From Methylotuvimicrobium buryatense 5G (GTDB lineage Bacteria; Pseudomonadota; Gammaproteobacteria; Methylococcales; Methylomonadaceae), in assembly GCF_000341735.1 (NCBI RefSeq), contig NZ_KB455575.1:4285188-4349187 (forward strand): a stretch of 64,000 nt of DNA, read 5' to 3'. The notes beneath the pieces were generated by a model. That model was given only the letters and a program-made list of their open reading frames with translations, was not told the DNA's origin and ran no database searches. Position numbers and translations under genes: made by a program. Of the stretch, positions 6,207 through 35,701 are shown one piece after another (position 1 is the first letter of the stretch; the number at the start of each line of letters is the position of its first letter).

Positions 6207-6703
6207 GTGTTAAAGCGTAGGTTTGATGTTATATAGGATGTTATATAGTTAGGGTAAAATTTACGGTATTTGGATTTTGCACTCTTAGCGTTTATGTGCA
6301 ATCTAAAGCGTCGAGGAAAATAGTTGGGCAAATGTTTTTTTTGTAAGCGGTTTGCCTACGAATTACTATTAAATCGTAAGAACTTGTTACCAAGGATTAA
6401 GGCTGAGTTTGCGTCGCGCAGGCAGGGACTGCCGTGTTCCAGATGCCATGGGCTTTCGCGTTCTTGCTGCCTGGGTTCCGGCAATCCCTGCTGGGATGAG
6501 GTTCTCAACATTTTTCAAGGTCTAGTGTTAACATAGCATAAATTTAAGGTATTTTTGTCAACATTAAATTAACATGCGTTTATACTACTATTCAGAAAGG
6601 GCCGAATGCCTGAGCGTTTCAGCTTGAGAAAGGTCTCTTTACTACGATCATTTCAGTGTAAATTCAAACTGGGCGGGCAACAAAGACTACAATAATTAAC
6701 TAA
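6207..6703. other. AT-rich intergenic region with an inverted repeat
   Basis: This is the divergent spacer between the coiled-coil operon and the RTX gene. It is AT-rich near 6230-6280 with a repeated GTTATATAG. An inverted pair, GCAGGGACTGCCG at 6422-6434 and CGGCAATCCCTGC at 6480-6492, could form a large hairpin and resembles repeats common between gammaproteobacterial genes. No gene is seen here. Confidence 0.5.
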
Positions 6704-14767: not shown

Positions 14768-15784
14768 TCATTCTCGTCCGCTCCATTTCTTTGATTCCGA
14801 TAAATCCTGTTCGGACTTTAGCTCGAAATAGCGGGCAAACAGCAAGATCAAAATACCGCTGATTGCCAGTAGATAACAATACTCTGCAAGGCTCTGCCGC
14901 GCTATTTTTTCGGTGTATTGAATCGGCTTGTTTTCGAGGCGACCGATTTCGTCGATGACGTTTTGAAGTGCTTCCGGGTTTTGGGCTTCGAAGGCCTTGT
15001 ACGGAATGCCGATGCTTTGGAAAAACTGATGCAGAAAATATTCCGGCGAGGTGGTTTCGTTTGCATTGGTTGGCTTGCTATCGAGAGCGAGGCTTCTGTC
15101 GTCGCGCAGATAAACCCAATACAGCATGACCTTGTATTGATGGAACAACTGGGTCAGCGTGCTTTGCGTTTCGAGATCGATGCGTGCGGCGCCGTCAGAT
15201 ACCAGTAGAATGACGCGCGATCCGGTCAACGGACGTTCCTGAAAATAGTTCAACGCCATCGCGAGACCCGGTGCGATGTTGGTGACGCCTCGGCCGCGCG
15301 ATCGGGTTGCGTCGATCGCGGCCAGAATCGCGGTTTTGTCTTGGGTCAGCGGCAAGACATGAATGGGCGCTGTGCTGAACGAAATCATGCCGAAAAAATC
15401 GTCTTTTCTGCGTTTGATGAAATCGCTGAGTAAATCTCGGGCAATCGCGATCTTGCTTTCTTTTGCCGCGCCGCCGAAATAACGGCCGGCGAAATTTTCG
15501 TTCATGCTTGCGCTTCGGTCGAGCAGGATGACGATTTCGGCGCCCTGGCCGAGTCGTTGTACGGTTTGCTCCTTGAGATAGGGGCCTGCCAGCGCGATCA
15601 GCAGCAACAGAATGACGCCGGCGCCGATCAACTTCAATAGCGTAAACAACAAAAATGACAAAGGGTCGAACGGCAATACCGACAGGCTTGAGTAACGCAG
15701 CGCGGTTAGATGCTTGCCGAAAAACGGCAGTAAGGCCAGTGGTGAAAACAGCAGTACCCAGGGATGACTTAGCGCTAAATCCAT
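14768..15784 (-). CDS. VWA-domain membrane protein, MxaC-like
   Basis: The 338-residue protein starts MDLALSHPW; a longer in-frame start 36 bases upstream would overlap the previous gene more and adds a non-membrane lead. It has two N-terminal hydrophobic helices, a von Willebrand A domain whose MIDAS motif is DRSAS (about residue 85), TNIAPGLAMAL and VSDGAARID further on, and a C-terminal membrane helix (CYLLAISGILILLFARYF). This is the BatA/MxaC plan. It ends a four-gene unit (MoxR, DUF58, MxaA-like, VWA) that repeats the order mxaR-S-A-C. A role in metal loading or maturation of a periplasmic dehydrogenase is inferred from that order. Confidence 0.75.
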   Translation of the reverse strand: MDLALSHPWVLLFSPLALLPFFGKHLTALRYSSLSVLPFDPLSFLLFTLLKLIGAGVILLLLIALAGPYLKEQTVQRLGQGAEIVILLDRSASMNENFAGRYFGGAAKESKIAIARDLLSDFIKRRKDDFFGMISFSTAPIHVLPLTQDKTAILAAIDATRSRGRGVTNIAPGLAMALNYFQERPLTGSRVILLVSDGAARIDLETQSTLTQLFHQYKVMLYWVYLRDDRSLALDSKPTNANETTSPEYFLHQFFQSIGIPYKAFEAQNPEALQNVIDEIGRLENKPIQYTEKIARQSLAEYCYLLAISGILILLFARYFELKSEQDLSESKKWSGRE

Positions 15785-16854
15785 CGACCGCTCCTTTCGA
15801 GCTTCCGGTATAGCAAGCACAGTTTCTCGATTTGAGCCGGACTTATTGCCGGTAATTCGCTAGCGGCTTCGGCAAAGAAGAGTTGCTGCGAAATGGCGAA
15901 TAAAGCTTCGGTCTTTTCTCGAAGCGTTAAAAACTTCGGATGACTTTGAAAAAAGTCCGGCAATTGTCCGGCAAAGAGTGTTTCGCCGGCCAGTTCGTTC
16001 AAGGCATGATGAAAGCATTGCAGGGCCTGTAAGGTCACGGCCTTCGATTGCGGCAACTTTTTGAGTTTTTTGAGTTCCCGGCAGGCTTTGCCGAATGAGC
16101 CGCTGTAACGTTCGAGAAACGGGATTTTGCCGTAAAACCACACGATATAGAGCAATATAATCGAAGATACCCCGAGCAAATAAGTCAAGGCGCGGTGGTG
16201 CGAAGTCGCATCGATCAGGCGCGGCGGCACTTCCGGTTCAGGCTCGATGTCGCGGTCGGCTTTGTTTATTGGAATCAGCGGGTGATAACTGAAAGTCCAA
16301 GGCGGAAGCGTTGCAGTTTCAGGATTGCCTCGGTGCATGAAGCGAATCGGCAATGGCGGGATCGTCAATTCCTCGGTGGCGCGTACGCTCTTGAAAACCT
16401 GATAGGTTATCGCAAGCGAGTAGTCTTTTCCTGATTTGTTTGGTATTGATTCGATACTATCAAGCCTAAGCCATTCGTTGACCGAGCCAGGGGCCGGCAG
16501 AAAGCCGGATTCCAGTGTATAGAATAACGGTACCCCGATATGGGCCGTCAGGGTGATTTTGTCGCCAAGGCTGTAGCCGTAATTGCGCGGCGAATCGAGT
16601 TCGATTTCAATGTTGGCCGCGTTTGCGGTCATGGCGCCCGATAAATACAGCAATAGCCATAAGTAAAAATGAGCTAAGGAACGAGCATGAAACAATTTAG
16701 ACAACTGTTGGAAGGGGGTTCGGTGGCTCGATTGGCAGGTGTCGGCGGCAGGGATAGCCGCCGTCAAGCCTACACGGACGTATTCACGGCGTCCTGTCAA
16801 GCGAGTCACCGAACCTCCGCAAAGCCTGCTAATTGTAGAAGTTATTTTGTGCAT
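15775..16854 (-). CDS. MxaA-like membrane protein, 5' end altered by repeat insertion
   Basis: From about residue 75 the protein reads as an exported beta domain (PRNYGYSLGDKITLTAH, the typical opening of MxaA proteins) followed by one transmembrane helix (ALTYLLGVSSIILLYIVWF) and a cytoplasmic tail. The coding sequence upstream of the signal-peptide core lies inside a family B repeat. Removing the repeat and one TTA copy gives a clean ancestral start at 16877 reading MNNKHLAHFYLWLL, overlapping the DUF58 stop. Today the first in-frame ATG is inside the repeat (16854), which would add about 50 residues before the hydrophobic core; TTG codons nearer the core are alternatives. It may be impaired or re-started. 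Confidence 0.7.
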   Translation of the reverse strand: MHKITSTISRLCGGSVTRLTGRREYVRVGLTAAIPAADTCQSSHRTPFQQLSKLFHARSLAHFYLWLLLYLSGAMTANAANIEIELDSPRNYGYSLGDKITLTAHIGVPLFYTLESGFLPAPGSVNEWLRLDSIESIPNKSGKDYSLAITYQVFKSVRATEELTIPPLPIRFMHRGNPETATLPPWTFSYHPLIPINKADRDIEPEPEVPPRLIDATSHHRALTYLLGVSSIILLYIVWFYGKIPFLERYSGSFGKACRELKKLKKLPQSKAVTLQALQCFHHALNELAGETLFAGQLPDFFQSHPKFLTLREKTEALFAISQQLFFAEAASELPAISPAQIEKLCLLYRKLERSGRWI

Positions 16855-16859
16855 ATTCC
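16678..16859 (-). repeat. Family B repeat, copy 2, inserted in the MxaA-like gene
   Basis: A 182-bp copy in reverse orientation, flanked by TAA on the plus strand at 16675-16677 and 16860-16862 (TTA in gene sense), the 3-bp target duplication. It carries the shared core (CACGGACGTATTCACGGCGT). Element plus duplication is 185 bp, so it shifts the frame of the host gene, but its own internal reading frame (MHKITSTISRL...) joins the downstream host frame. Confidence 0.9.
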
Positions 16860-16866
16860 TAAGTGT

Positions 16867-17700
16867 TTATTGTTCATAGAAATAATGGGTGAGCTGATCG
16901 GCCTGAAAGGTGTCGTCGAGAAAAAACGCTTGGCGGCCGTAGCGCGTAAACAAATGCTTGAGCTGTTCTTGCCGGGTCTCGAATGCCGCGATGATTTTGC
17001 GTTTCAGGGCCGGACGCATCAGTAATTGTCGGTCTTTACCGGTTTCCGGATCTTCCAGGCGCACCAGGCCCCATTCCGGCAGATTGCGATACTCTTGGGG
17101 ATGCCATAATACGACCGGGATCACGTCGTGTTTCAACAGCGAATCGAAAATTTCGGCGGTTTCATGAAACGGAAAATGAAAGTCGGAGACTAGAAAAATC
17201 AACGAGCGATGCCGGGGGCAATGCTCGGCGATCGAGAGCAGGCTTCGGCAATGGCTGTCGCCGGGGTCGAATTGCCCGAGCCGGTCTACGAGTTCGGCGG
17301 CGCCGCCTTTGTACCAGCGCGGCGGTAGATGAAAGTCCGGCAATAAATCCAGTCCGCAGCCGAAAAAGCCGAAATGATCGCCGCTACGATAGGCTGAATA
17401 AGCCGTCAATTCGGTAAATCGTGCCAGGGTTTTCATTTTTCCGTGAAAGCCCATCGAGGCCGATAAGTCCGCAATGATGTTGACCGAAATCAAGCCGCGC
17501 TGGCGAAAAGTCCTGACCATGAATTGGCCGAACGGGTCGAGCAGACTGGCGTGAATATCGATATTGTGCGCTTCGGGACGCGCGATAAAGAGCGCATGCC
17601 CGTGAAACTCATGTTCGCCGCCGCTGTGTTTGCCGGCATGACGACCAGGGTGCGCGCTCGCGGTGCGCCAAGGCAGTTGATAATGAAATTCTTCGAGCAT
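16867..17700 (-). CDS. DUF58 protein, MxaS-like
   Basis: This 277-residue protein is a close architectural match to the MxaS gene that starts at 63353: both have LLDPF, then a VWA-like ADLSASM / VDLSASM motif, GDHFGFFGCG / GDNFGFIGCG, and LVSDFHF / LLSDFHF followed by VPVVLW / VPLVLW. It is a soluble DUF58 protein that normally works with a MoxR ATPase. Here the MoxR gene lies 117 bases upstream. Its stop codon once overlapped the start of the MxaA-like gene before the B repeat landed. Confidence 0.85.
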   Translation of the reverse strand: MLEEFHYQLPWRTASAHPGRHAGKHSGGEHEFHGHALFIARPEAHNIDIHASLLDPFGQFMVRTFRQRGLISVNIIADLSASMGFHGKMKTLARFTELTAYSAYRSGDHFGFFGCGLDLLPDFHLPPRWYKGGAAELVDRLGQFDPGDSHCRSLLSIAEHCPRHRSLIFLVSDFHFPFHETAEIFDSLLKHDVIPVVLWHPQEYRNLPEWGLVRLEDPETGKDRQLLMRPALKRKIIAAFETRQEQLKHLFTRYGRQAFFLDDTFQADQLTHYFYEQ

Positions 17701-17817
17701 CGTTGGCTTGTGGTAGTAAGCGGTTAGTAGTGAGCAGTGAGCGGAAAGATAAATAATAAAATTCTTAGAGCATCATCCGATTAAGTTTCGCGTACAAATG
17801 GATTGGAGCAAATTTTC

Positions 17818-18834
17818 TTAGGGCGCCGCTACCTGCTGCAGTATTTTTTGGCTGAGCTGTTCGGCGAGCAGTGTACGTCTCAATTCGTAAGTCGGGTTGA
17901 AAAACACACGGTGCGCGATCGTTTCATGGAAAATTTCGCGGATATCTTCCGGCAAGACGTGCGTACGACCGTTTAGCCATGCCGTCACTCGCGCCGCGCG
18001 CATCAGCATTCCGGCACCGCGGGCGCTGGCCCCCGCCAGGATTAGCCGGTCCATGTCGACATTGTCTAATGCAATCGAAAAGTTTTTCGGGAAACGGGTC
18101 GCCTGCCAAAGTTGTAAGGCATAATTTTGCAAGGTTTCACTGGCTTGGATGTGGTGCTGAATCTGTCGGCTGATTTCGTTCAATTCTCGGTAGGGGAGGA
18201 TGCCCGGCTGTATCGTCTCGATCAATGCGTCGACATCGTAAAATCTCGGATTGAACATCAATTCGCGCTGTAGTGCCGGGTCTTCCGGCGTTTCGATTTT
18301 CAACTCCATCATGAAGCGGTCGCGGGCCGCGGAAGGTATTTCGAAGGTTTCGTCCTTTTCGACGCGGTTGCGGTCGGCGAAGACCTGTAAATGCGGGAAA
18401 TAATGCTCACGGTTGAAAGCCGTGACCGATTTTTCGGCCATCACGCGCAACAGTAATGAATGGACCTGGGGTCGGGCGCGGTTGACTTCGTTGAAAAAGA
18501 AGGTCGATAGCTCCTCGCCGTGTTTCAGGATCGGCCCGGGGTCGACCTGCGGTTTGCCGGCTTCGTTGATGTAGGTGTGGTAGACCAGGTCGTTCGGCAT
18601 CAGATCGATGGTGCCTTCGATGCGCTCATAAGCGCCGCCGATGCCGCGTGCGACCGCTCTCAACAAGGTGGTTTTACCAACCCCGACATCGCCTTCGAGC
18701 ATCGCATGGCCGCGCGCGAATATCGCGGTCGTGACGAGTCGTACCGGACGTTCGAGTCCGATCACGGCTTTGTTGATTTCCTGTTCGAACAGTGCGGCGC
18801 GGTTATGCCAATCGGCTAGGTTTCGGTCGGTCAT
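17818..18834 (-). CDS. MoxR-family AAA+ ATPase (paralogue of mxaR)
   Basis: The 338-residue ATPase has the same length as mxaR at 61072-62088 and aligns from the start (MTDRNLADWHNRAALFEQ against MTDKLLNDWREKALQFEQ), which fixes the start here; a longer open frame upstream runs into repeat DNA. Walker A is GDVGVGKTTLL and Walker B is FFFNEVNRARPQVHSLL, with a sensor region ADRNRVEKDETFEIPSAARDRF. MoxR ATPases act as chaperones with VWA partners, and the DUF58 and VWA genes that follow supply them. Its promoter region is filled with C-type repeats. Confidence 0.88.
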   Translation of the reverse strand: MTDRNLADWHNRAALFEQEINKAVIGLERPVRLVTTAIFARGHAMLEGDVGVGKTTLLRAVARGIGGAYERIEGTIDLMPNDLVYHTYINEAGKPQVDPGPILKHGEELSTFFFNEVNRARPQVHSLLLRVMAEKSVTAFNREHYFPHLQVFADRNRVEKDETFEIPSAARDRFMMELKIETPEDPALQRELMFNPRFYDVDALIETIQPGILPYRELNEISRQIQHHIQASETLQNYALQLWQATRFPKNFSIALDNVDMDRLILAGASARGAGMLMRAARVTAWLNGRTHVLPEDIREIFHETIAHRVFFNPTYELRRTLLAEQLSQKILQQVAAP

Positions 18835-18911
18835 TATGGTGTTTAGTTTAAGTGTTATCGGTAGCATTAATTCGGCAAAGGGCTGCCGGTTGGGATTATT
18901 TGGGTAGAGCT

Positions 18912-19158
18912 TTAACCTCTCGTTCATGAAGGCCCGGCCATCGCCCCGGCAAAATAGTTCTTGGGTGGCGGAGGGCGCGGTCACTCGCCCGACAGGACGC
19001 CGTGAATACATCCATGTAGGCTCGACGGCGGCTGTCCTTGCCGCCGACGCCTGTCGGTCGAGCAACCGCTCCCTCTCCGGAACCTACATTTTCTCTGTCG
19101 AGTTTCTTAATATCGAAAAACTAGATTAAGATTTCAAATCCACGAACTTTCACAGTAA
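18912..19158 (+). repeat. Family C repeat, copy 1
   Basis: The element starts near TTAACC...GTTCATGAAGG, then GCCATCGCCCCGGCAAA, the shared core GACGCCGTGAATACATCC with a GGCGGC/GCCGCC hairpin, and ends at CACGAACTTTCACAGTAA. It matches the reverse copy at 20193-20489 in both arms. The ends are only loosely inverted, so the exact boundaries are approximate. Confidence 0.7.
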
Positions 19159-35148: not shown

Positions 35149-35701
35149 ATTTAATCTTCCGACCTATCTGACTTTGCTGAGAATTGTTTTAATTCCGTTG
35201 CTTGCAGTGGTGTTTTATCTGCCTTGGGAATATGCCAACTTGGCTTCGACAATCATTTTTATTTTGGCCGGTATCACTGATTGGTTGGATGGTTATTTGG
35301 CTCGTAAGATGAGTTTGGAAACACCGTTCGGTGCTTTTTTGGATCCGGTTGCGGATAAATTGATGGTGGCGATTGTGCTGGTTTTGATTGTACAACAAGA
35401 CGGTTCGCCTTATTTAGCTTTACCTGCGGCAATTATTATCGGGCGCGAAATTACGATTGCATCGTTACGCGAATGGATGGCGGAATTGGGGCAGCGCGCT
35501 AAAGTCAAAGTTTCGCAATTGGGTAAATGGAAAACCACCGCGCAAATGACCGCGATCGGGTTTTTATTGTACGGACAGGATGTCATCGGTATCCCCGTTA
35601 AGACATCCGGATATGTGTTGCTGTATCTGGCGGCGATATTGACGTTATGGTCGATGATTAATTATTTGAAAGCCGCATGGAGTGTGTTTGGAGAGGGTTA
35701 G
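35138..35701 (+). CDS. pgsA: CDP-diacylglycerol-glycerol-3-phosphate 3-phosphatidyltransferase
   Basis: PgsA makes phosphatidylglycerol phosphate at the inner membrane. The 187 residues have the full CDP-alcohol phosphotransferase motif: DWLDGYLARKM, then a G and two Asp residues in PFGAFLDPVADK, with several membrane helices. The ATG at 35138 lies 11 bases inside the uvrC end, so the two are coupled, as in Escherichia coli. The stop codon TAG uses the first base of a B repeat that inserted at this point; the original stop was TAA. Confidence 0.93.
   Translation: MAIKFNLPTYLTLLRIVLIPLLAVVFYLPWEYANLASTIIFILAGITDWLDGYLARKMSLETPFGAFLDPVADKLMVAIVLVLIVQQDGSPYLALPAAIIIGREITIASLREWMAELGQRAKVKVSQLGKWKTTAQMTAIGFLLYGQDVIGIPVKTSGYVLLYLAAILTLWSMINYLKAAWSVFGEG

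Follow-up and report, generated by a model that had tools for sequence, protein, structure and literature searches.

In the 64,000-nt window of the Methylotuvimicrobium buryatense 5G genome studied here (the window is the whole stretch of DNA that was analysed; its numbering is used for coordinates unless another locus or genome is named, and the genome carrying it is G000, at C1:4285188–4349187), an MxaA-like gene is split within its signal peptide by a 182-bp hairpin repeat resembling a miniature inverted-repeat transposable element (MITE). We think it likely that this repeat inserted once, severed the old start codon and now supplies a new one, and that the gene persists. The host bacteria are methanotrophs, which are not known to be pathogens, and the gene follows a DUF58 gene whose stop codon lies close to the insertion. 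An insertion that shifts the frame as early as codon 6 would be expected to kill a gene, yet this one persists under selection, the repeat bringing starts and an exit frame of its own. The parts of the insertion site are:

16678–16859, minus strand: 182-bp MITE-like hairpin repeat interrupting the MxaA-like gene at codon 6 (empty site in the congener G001, duplications across the family, fold)
16860–16862, minus strand: target-site TTA towards DUF58, reading CTA in G004 and G005 (read from the sequence and alignment)
16675–16677, minus strand: TTA target-site copy on the gene side (read from the sequence and alignment)
16875–16877, minus strand: ATG that formerly started the gene and overlaps the DUF58 stop (conserved in position in G001 and the sister-genus loci L007–L009)
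16842–16877, minus strand: mini-frame left from the old start, MNNKHLGICTK and then TAA (read from the sequence)
16615–16677, minus strand: remainder of the host signal peptide, LAHFYLWLLLYLSGAMTANAA (sequence, alignment, hydropathy)

The initial annotation had proposed that a 182-bp repeat with a TTA duplication splits the gene in its signal peptide, and these positions bear it out: repeat and duplication together add 182 + 3 = 185 bp at codon 6, which shifts the frame. When the repeat and one TTA are skipped, the sequence reads MNNKHLAHFYLWLL..., in frame with ...TANAANIEIEL, and past the second TTA the host frame resumes with AHFYLWLLLYLSGAMTANAA. The frame opening at ATG 16877 overlaps the DUF58 stop (TAA, 16869–16867), as was claimed for the ancestral start. 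It now yields 11 codons (MNNKHLGICTK) before a stop at 16844–16842, whose TAA begins 10 nt beyond the A of the repeat's own ATG at 16854. That ATG opens a frame of 359 amino acids (aa) which continues into the MxaA-like gene, again as proposed. Two further copies of the repeat lie in the window, one near 6699 (93% alike over 152 nt) and one near 35698 (93% over 188 nt).

A query with the core of the gene matched 59 of 101 genomes; the ten best of 30 loci were read, and the six loci from the genus were aligned. The MxaA-like gene was present in all six genus genomes (G000–G005). In G001, a congener with a 79%-complete genome, there was no repeat: the empty site is ATGAACAATAAACACTTTGCTCATTTTTGC, and the gene reads MNNKHFAHFCLLLTLYLSGAMTAIGANIEIEL (MNNKHFAHFC...) from an ATG overlapping the DUF58 stop. 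This uninterrupted gene matches the one reconstructed by excising the repeat, and its empty site gives the change a direction, namely that the repeat came in, which turns a resemblance into an event. In G000, G002, G003, G004 and G005, the repeat sits at the identical base and the frame is open from repeat to gene, in G005 despite an extra 54-bp insertion within the repeat. The sister-genus loci L007–L009 and L010 also lack the repeat, with a start at or near the same place. A long N-terminus without a repeat in all relatives, which would have told against the initial annotation, was not seen. On these alignments, the repeat is a single insertion, made once the lineage or allele of G001 had branched off. 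We compared 13 repeat sites in the surrounding stretches, for several of which the flanks could be traced in part of the species only, and the MxaA-like site alone was occupied in all five species; the others were patchy, some clearly empty and some with untraceable flanks.

The same repeat is dispersed through the genus. Among the matches listed (best 40 or 150 candidates scored per genome), nucleotide searches gave at least 43–48 repeat matches per genome in all six genus genomes (best 40), and a protein query with the repeat frame gave at least 88–154 per genome (best 150). We parsed 76 copies, distinguished by their flanks, so that orthologues from different species may be counted twice. 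Identical 3 bp stood at both ends in 68 of them (38 TTA, 27 TAA, 2 CTA and 1 AAA), and the TTA pair at the MxaA-like gene is therefore not chance. The commonest copy length was 182 bp (35 copies); as single-stranded DNA, the 182-bp repeat is predicted to fold end to end with its ends paired (−36.1 kcal/mol, z −5.14). Short, non-coding, dispersed and multi-copy, with terminal inverted repeats or a hairpin, target duplications and empty sites, the family appears by its sequence to be a MITE. IS5-type and PIF-Harbinger elements make 3-bp TWA-type duplications, which the repeat resembles in duplicating 3 bp. Six PF13586 transposase loci (~3.25 kb; PF13586 being the only family tried) showed no pair of repeat ends and one loose one-ended match, so none of them fits as the source of the ends, and a plasmid search with the repeat gave no match. 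The only Rfam match was sub-threshold: the hairpin core (16736–16840) resembles the Yersinia small RNA Ysr224, with which it has a long run of bases in common, at 23.6 bits (gathering score 70), and this core may occur beyond the genus.

The initial annotation had also noted that the same repeat is open in the ATG frame elsewhere, and this was true of 59 out of 71 copies (53 of 59 short and 6 of 12 long ones). The other two forward frames were open in none (0/59 short, 0/12 long), and the length of 37 of the 59 short copies lets the ATG frame exit in phase with the last base. Variation by codon position over 35 copies was 0.13, 0.23 and 0.20 bits; lacking a third-position excess, the family shows no repeat protein under conservation, which rules out that it was selected to encode a peptide. 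The open ATG frame looks like a by-product that is useful when a copy lands well. Some copies hold nested hairpin cassettes, either of ~49–54 bp near the loop or with ends CCCAGCACCTAAATT. These differ between orthologous copies with near-identical flanks (the G005 copy L005; G002 versus G003 at one shared site), as if they moved or were exchanged within repeats.

Three candidate starts lie within the repeat at the MxaA-like gene:

16852–16854, minus strand: ATG of the repeat, following the DUF58 stop by 12 nt; candidate start (359 aa), kept in 5/5 alleles, weak ribosome-binding match of −3.3 kcal/mol
16807–16809, minus strand: GTG in the repeat behind GGAGG; candidate start (344 aa), kept in 5/5 alleles, ribosome-binding match of −10.2 kcal/mol
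16702–16704, minus strand: TTG near the repeat end; candidate start MSKLFHARSLAHFYLWLLLYLSGAMTANAA, kept in 5/5 alleles, ordinary-length signal peptide, no ribosome-binding match

The DUF58 stop TAA is in frame upstream of the frame that joins repeat and gene. Codons farther upstream can therefore not feed this frame, and a start that keeps the signal peptide must lie in the repeat or be a poor TTG just after it. In-frame starts in the repeat are ATG 16854, GTG 16809 and several TTG codons; after it come TTG 16653, CTG 16650 and ATG 16632, with ribosome-binding matches of −1.5 to −2.5 kcal/mol. By hydropathy, with which signal peptides were assessed throughout, the starts after the repeat leave no charged n-region. 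GTG 16809 and its GGAGG lie within the hairpin. This combination was a candidate for a local adaptation; it recurs in 13 of 62 readable copies (of the 76), which makes it a family variant. We rank ATG 16854 first among the candidates, giving it about an even chance, because coupling of the gene to the DUF58 stop predates the insertion; the old start has no ribosome-binding match.

The comparisons show the insertion, its direction, its single site, the conserved frame and selection on the core; from these features we infer which start is used, the restarting and export. A non-autonomous hairpin transposon would have entered the Leu (TTA) codon 6, in the n-region of the signal peptide, in an ancestor of the five alleles, cutting off the old start, whose 11 codons end inside the repeat. 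The stop-free frame of the repeat, which contains starts, would leave at the other end and rejoin the host frame at TTA, which is how the gene would have survived. Ribosomes would most likely restart at ATG 16854 after finishing either DUF58, whose stop lies 12 nt before it, or the 11-codon remnant, whose stop lies 10 nt past it, the prior coupling to the DUF58 stop making a strong ribosome-binding site unneeded; GTG 16809 behind GGAGG or TTG 16704 are the alternatives. The resulting extension of 9–59 residues, itself unselected, would be tolerated since the signal peptide should be cleaved off, leaving the mature protein unchanged.

That the gene is alive is indicated by its core, which has equal length and no stops in all five repeat-bearing alleles. 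Between G000 and G005, 30 of 633 nonsynonymous sites differ versus 25 of 201 synonymous ones (p 0.0005), and the ratio of nonsynonymous to synonymous divergence (dN/dS) is 0.2–0.5 within the repeat-bearing group. Judged by these ratios, the MxaA-like core is under purifying selection, somewhat relaxed. The initial annotation had left the choice between a repeat that provides the N-terminus and a dying gene; the intact core and a dN/dS of ~0.2–0.5 support the former better, with use of a start in the repeat deduced from sequence.

Several observations weigh against a repeat-supplied start in a fully working gene. Within the group, the core dN/dS exceeds both that against G001 (0.11–0.13) and that of the neighbours (DUF58 0.07–0.20, VWA 0.04–0.21, MoxR 0.02–0.06), so function may be partly relaxed. 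In the repeat part, compared codon by codon with the extra 54 bases of G005 excluded, dN/dS is 0.5–1 on few changes in nine of ten pairs and undefined in the tenth; the repeat-derived codons show no clear amino-acid constraint, and at such low divergence a frame would often stay open by chance. The match at ATG 16854 (−3.3 kcal/mol) is little above that at ATG 16632 (−2.5), and the extended n-region may export poorly. Furthermore, at a DUF2272 lipoprotein gene captured by the same repeat (see below), nested cassettes in G005 break the frame from the repeat's ATG and only a later in-frame stretch is open, so that this ATG is not always the start.

The raised ratio is also what favours a slowly decaying pseudogene that lost its start, the frame through the repeat being open by chance. 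Nonsynonymous to synonymous changes between G000 and G005 number 30:25 versus 49:93 to G001 (p 0.015) and versus 13:27 in DUF58 of the same pair (p 0.039), and the genome has a second, canonical mxaA. A core of the same length and free of stops in 5/5 species, with dN/dS clearly below 1, argues against such decay, which we regard as unlikely. Alternatively, translation might begin just after the repeat, at TTG 16653 or ATG 16632, using no repeat codons and with the signal peptide lost or shortened. Both codons are in frame and slightly less paired (mean unpaired 0.58 and 0.56 versus 0.53 at ATG 16854), and their ribosome-binding matches (−1.5 and −2.5 kcal/mol) are weak, near that of ATG 16854, but neither gives a charged n-region ahead of the hydrophobic stretch. 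Moreover, four of the five alleles agree in all 19 codons that precede the mature part, with three changes in G004, as if they were used, although divergence is low; we consider a start there quite improbable. The long frame common to five species would also fit a native long N-terminus that the repeat only resembles. This is refuted by the empty site in G001, the lack of a repeat in L007–L009 or L010, the 3-bp duplication and the dozens of copies elsewhere, and we give it practically no weight.

The five-species distribution could be taken as proof that the insertion of the repeat is very old, but low local divergence weakens this argument. The segment at 15.5–18.0 kb was the least diverged of 26 comparable 2.5-kb segments (ten-pair mean 4.1%, median 5.5%), most strongly between G000 and G003, which differ by 1.2% over 15501–18000 versus a median of 6.8%. 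Synonymous divergence of the core was 0.03–0.14, below that of MoxR in 10/10 pairs, of VWA in 10/10 and of DUF58 in 8/10. By overall identity, the other pairs were only mildly low in divergence, and some were ordinary (G003–G005, with 18 of 26 segments no more diverged). It is thus possible, from these comparisons, that the repeat-bearing allele passed between some of the species, most clearly between G000 and G003, in which case the insertion would be younger than its five-species spread suggests. The repeat copy itself seemed unusually conserved (7 of 183 changes versus 25 of 201 synonymous gene sites, p 0.003), but this was discarded as other copies are similar: of four other shared copies, two diverge by 0.5–2.7%, a third by 3.7% and one by 8–23%.

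We sought further captures with the protein query made from the repeat frame, reporting the length of the open frame, and found at least four captured loci with 11 alleles, MxaA included, 10 of which read without a stop from the repeat's ATG to the gene; more may exist beyond the matches listed. At a Pom-type porin gene (PF17251; L233–L235) in G000, G002 and G003, the repeat starts at the stop of the upstream gene, 4 nt before the repeat's ATG; GGAGG lies 8 nt before this ATG, and 59 repeat codons lead into a signal-peptide-like stretch. No empty site was found for the porin in the genus because the three other genus genomes gave no match to the gene. The DUF2272 lipoprotein gene (L236) is captured in G004 and G005, and the insertion is absent in G000, G002, G003 and G001. 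In G001 (L260), a different, diverged copy of the repeat lies farther upstream of this gene. A cytochrome c'-like lipoprotein gene (L278; PF01322 below cut-off) is captured in G000, and the site is empty in G002, G003 and G001. The insertion struck codon 11, a TTA, and the interrupted old frame closes with LGICAK, as at MxaA. Indeed, the geometry of a stop and a new start seen at the MxaA-like locus recurs at both lipoprotein genes. Of two other long frames in G000, 2538662 proved to be one of these captures and 1832455 to be repeats in a row, and frames L237–L243 and L118, which run into or out of repeats and join no recognisable gene, were not counted.

All four captured genes look, from their predicted products, as if they encode exported or lipid-anchored proteins. 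It is conceivable, though we advance it tentatively and would not yet expect it to hold in full, that the family repeatedly donates translation starts, that four exported proteins of the genus have been re-started by it, that n-regions are a safe harbour as the foreign part is cleaved, and that recombination may also have carried the MxaA allele from one species to another. One end of the repeat would bring an ATG among stops of the other frames, and the other end would let the ATG frame out. The apparent preference for signal peptides comes from four cases that were found by seeking in-frame fusions; it suggests a pattern to test and is no proof. The testable rule would be that mobile DNA is tolerated where it lands at the start of a signal peptide, and such starts might be a route of N-terminus turnover.

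In-frame fusions by small repeats are already known; what is new here are the proven empty sites and the recurrence at signal peptides. The closest likeness is RU-2 (YPAL), a small mobile hairpin repeat of ~168 bp in Yersinia whose 56-aa open frame is fused in frame to genes (Delihas 2007, PMC2759123). Its duplications are TA, whereas those of the Methylotuvimicrobium repeat are TTA/TAA, and the passages of that report available to us describe no empty site in the same gene, retention across several species or stop-and-restart geometry. Unlike in the RU-2 fusions described there, the host hydrophobic core is kept in the MxaA-like gene and the repeat replaces only the part before it. Rickettsia palindromic elements (RPE), as far as the parts we drew on describe them, are repeats of ~150 bp with a conserved open frame that lie in frame within unrelated genes and modify the product by translational fusion (PMC10969869). 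Like them, the repeat has an open frame that joins a host gene in phase, but its peptide is not conserved as a protein. It severs the old start at MxaA and must supply a new N-terminal one, and the repeat-derived part, being N-terminal, should be cleaved off, unlike in RPE. In Coxiella, the MITE families QMITE1 and QMITE2 overlap annotated genes, with 2–3-nt duplications for QMITE1; in the sections of that account we used, its authors saw no apparent 5′-end effect for genes of known function (PMC5896051), whereas the captures described here are all at the 5′ end. In the open-licence literature, searched by title and start of the abstract, we found no account of start or signal-peptide capture by a MITE, of a Methylomicrobium MITE or of a Methylotuvimicrobium mxaA case.

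The MxaA-like gene belongs to a cluster on the minus strand in the order MoxR–DUF58–MxaA-like–VWA, whose other members were assigned by Pfam:

17818–19065, minus strand: MoxR-like ATPase, first gene of the cluster (Pfam, frame listing)
16867–17700, minus strand: DUF58 (MxaS-like) gene, upstream of the MxaA-like gene (PF01882)
15775–16614, minus strand: mature part of the MxaA-like protein (NIEIEL...), intact in 5/5 repeat-bearing species, 32% identity to canonical MxaA
14768–15820, minus strand: VWA (MxaC-like) gene, downstream of the MxaA-like gene (PF13519)

The MxaA-like gene is a paralogue outside the mxaF cluster; aligned with the copy in the mxa cluster over 278 positions, it shows 32% identity. 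We take both copies to be MxaA by name, and no Pfam or NCBIfam model matched either; homology and the order MoxR–DUF58–MxaA–VWA indicate that the gene is a member of this family. The canonical mxa cluster starts ~40 kb away and extends beyond the window end. It was recognised by models for a pyrroloquinoline quinone (PQQ)-dependent methanol/ethanol-family dehydrogenase, MoxJ and cytochrome c(L) MoxG. In this cluster (2456–13892 of L072), repeat-like sequence and GAAAGAT-type short repeats separate the MoxR gene from the genes that follow it. By analogy with the copy in the mxa cluster, the real start of the MoxR-like gene in the window is probably at MTDRN. Directly upstream of this gene, at 18929–19076, lies a diverged copy of the 182-bp repeat family in the opposite direction, which the predicted MoxR frame enters.

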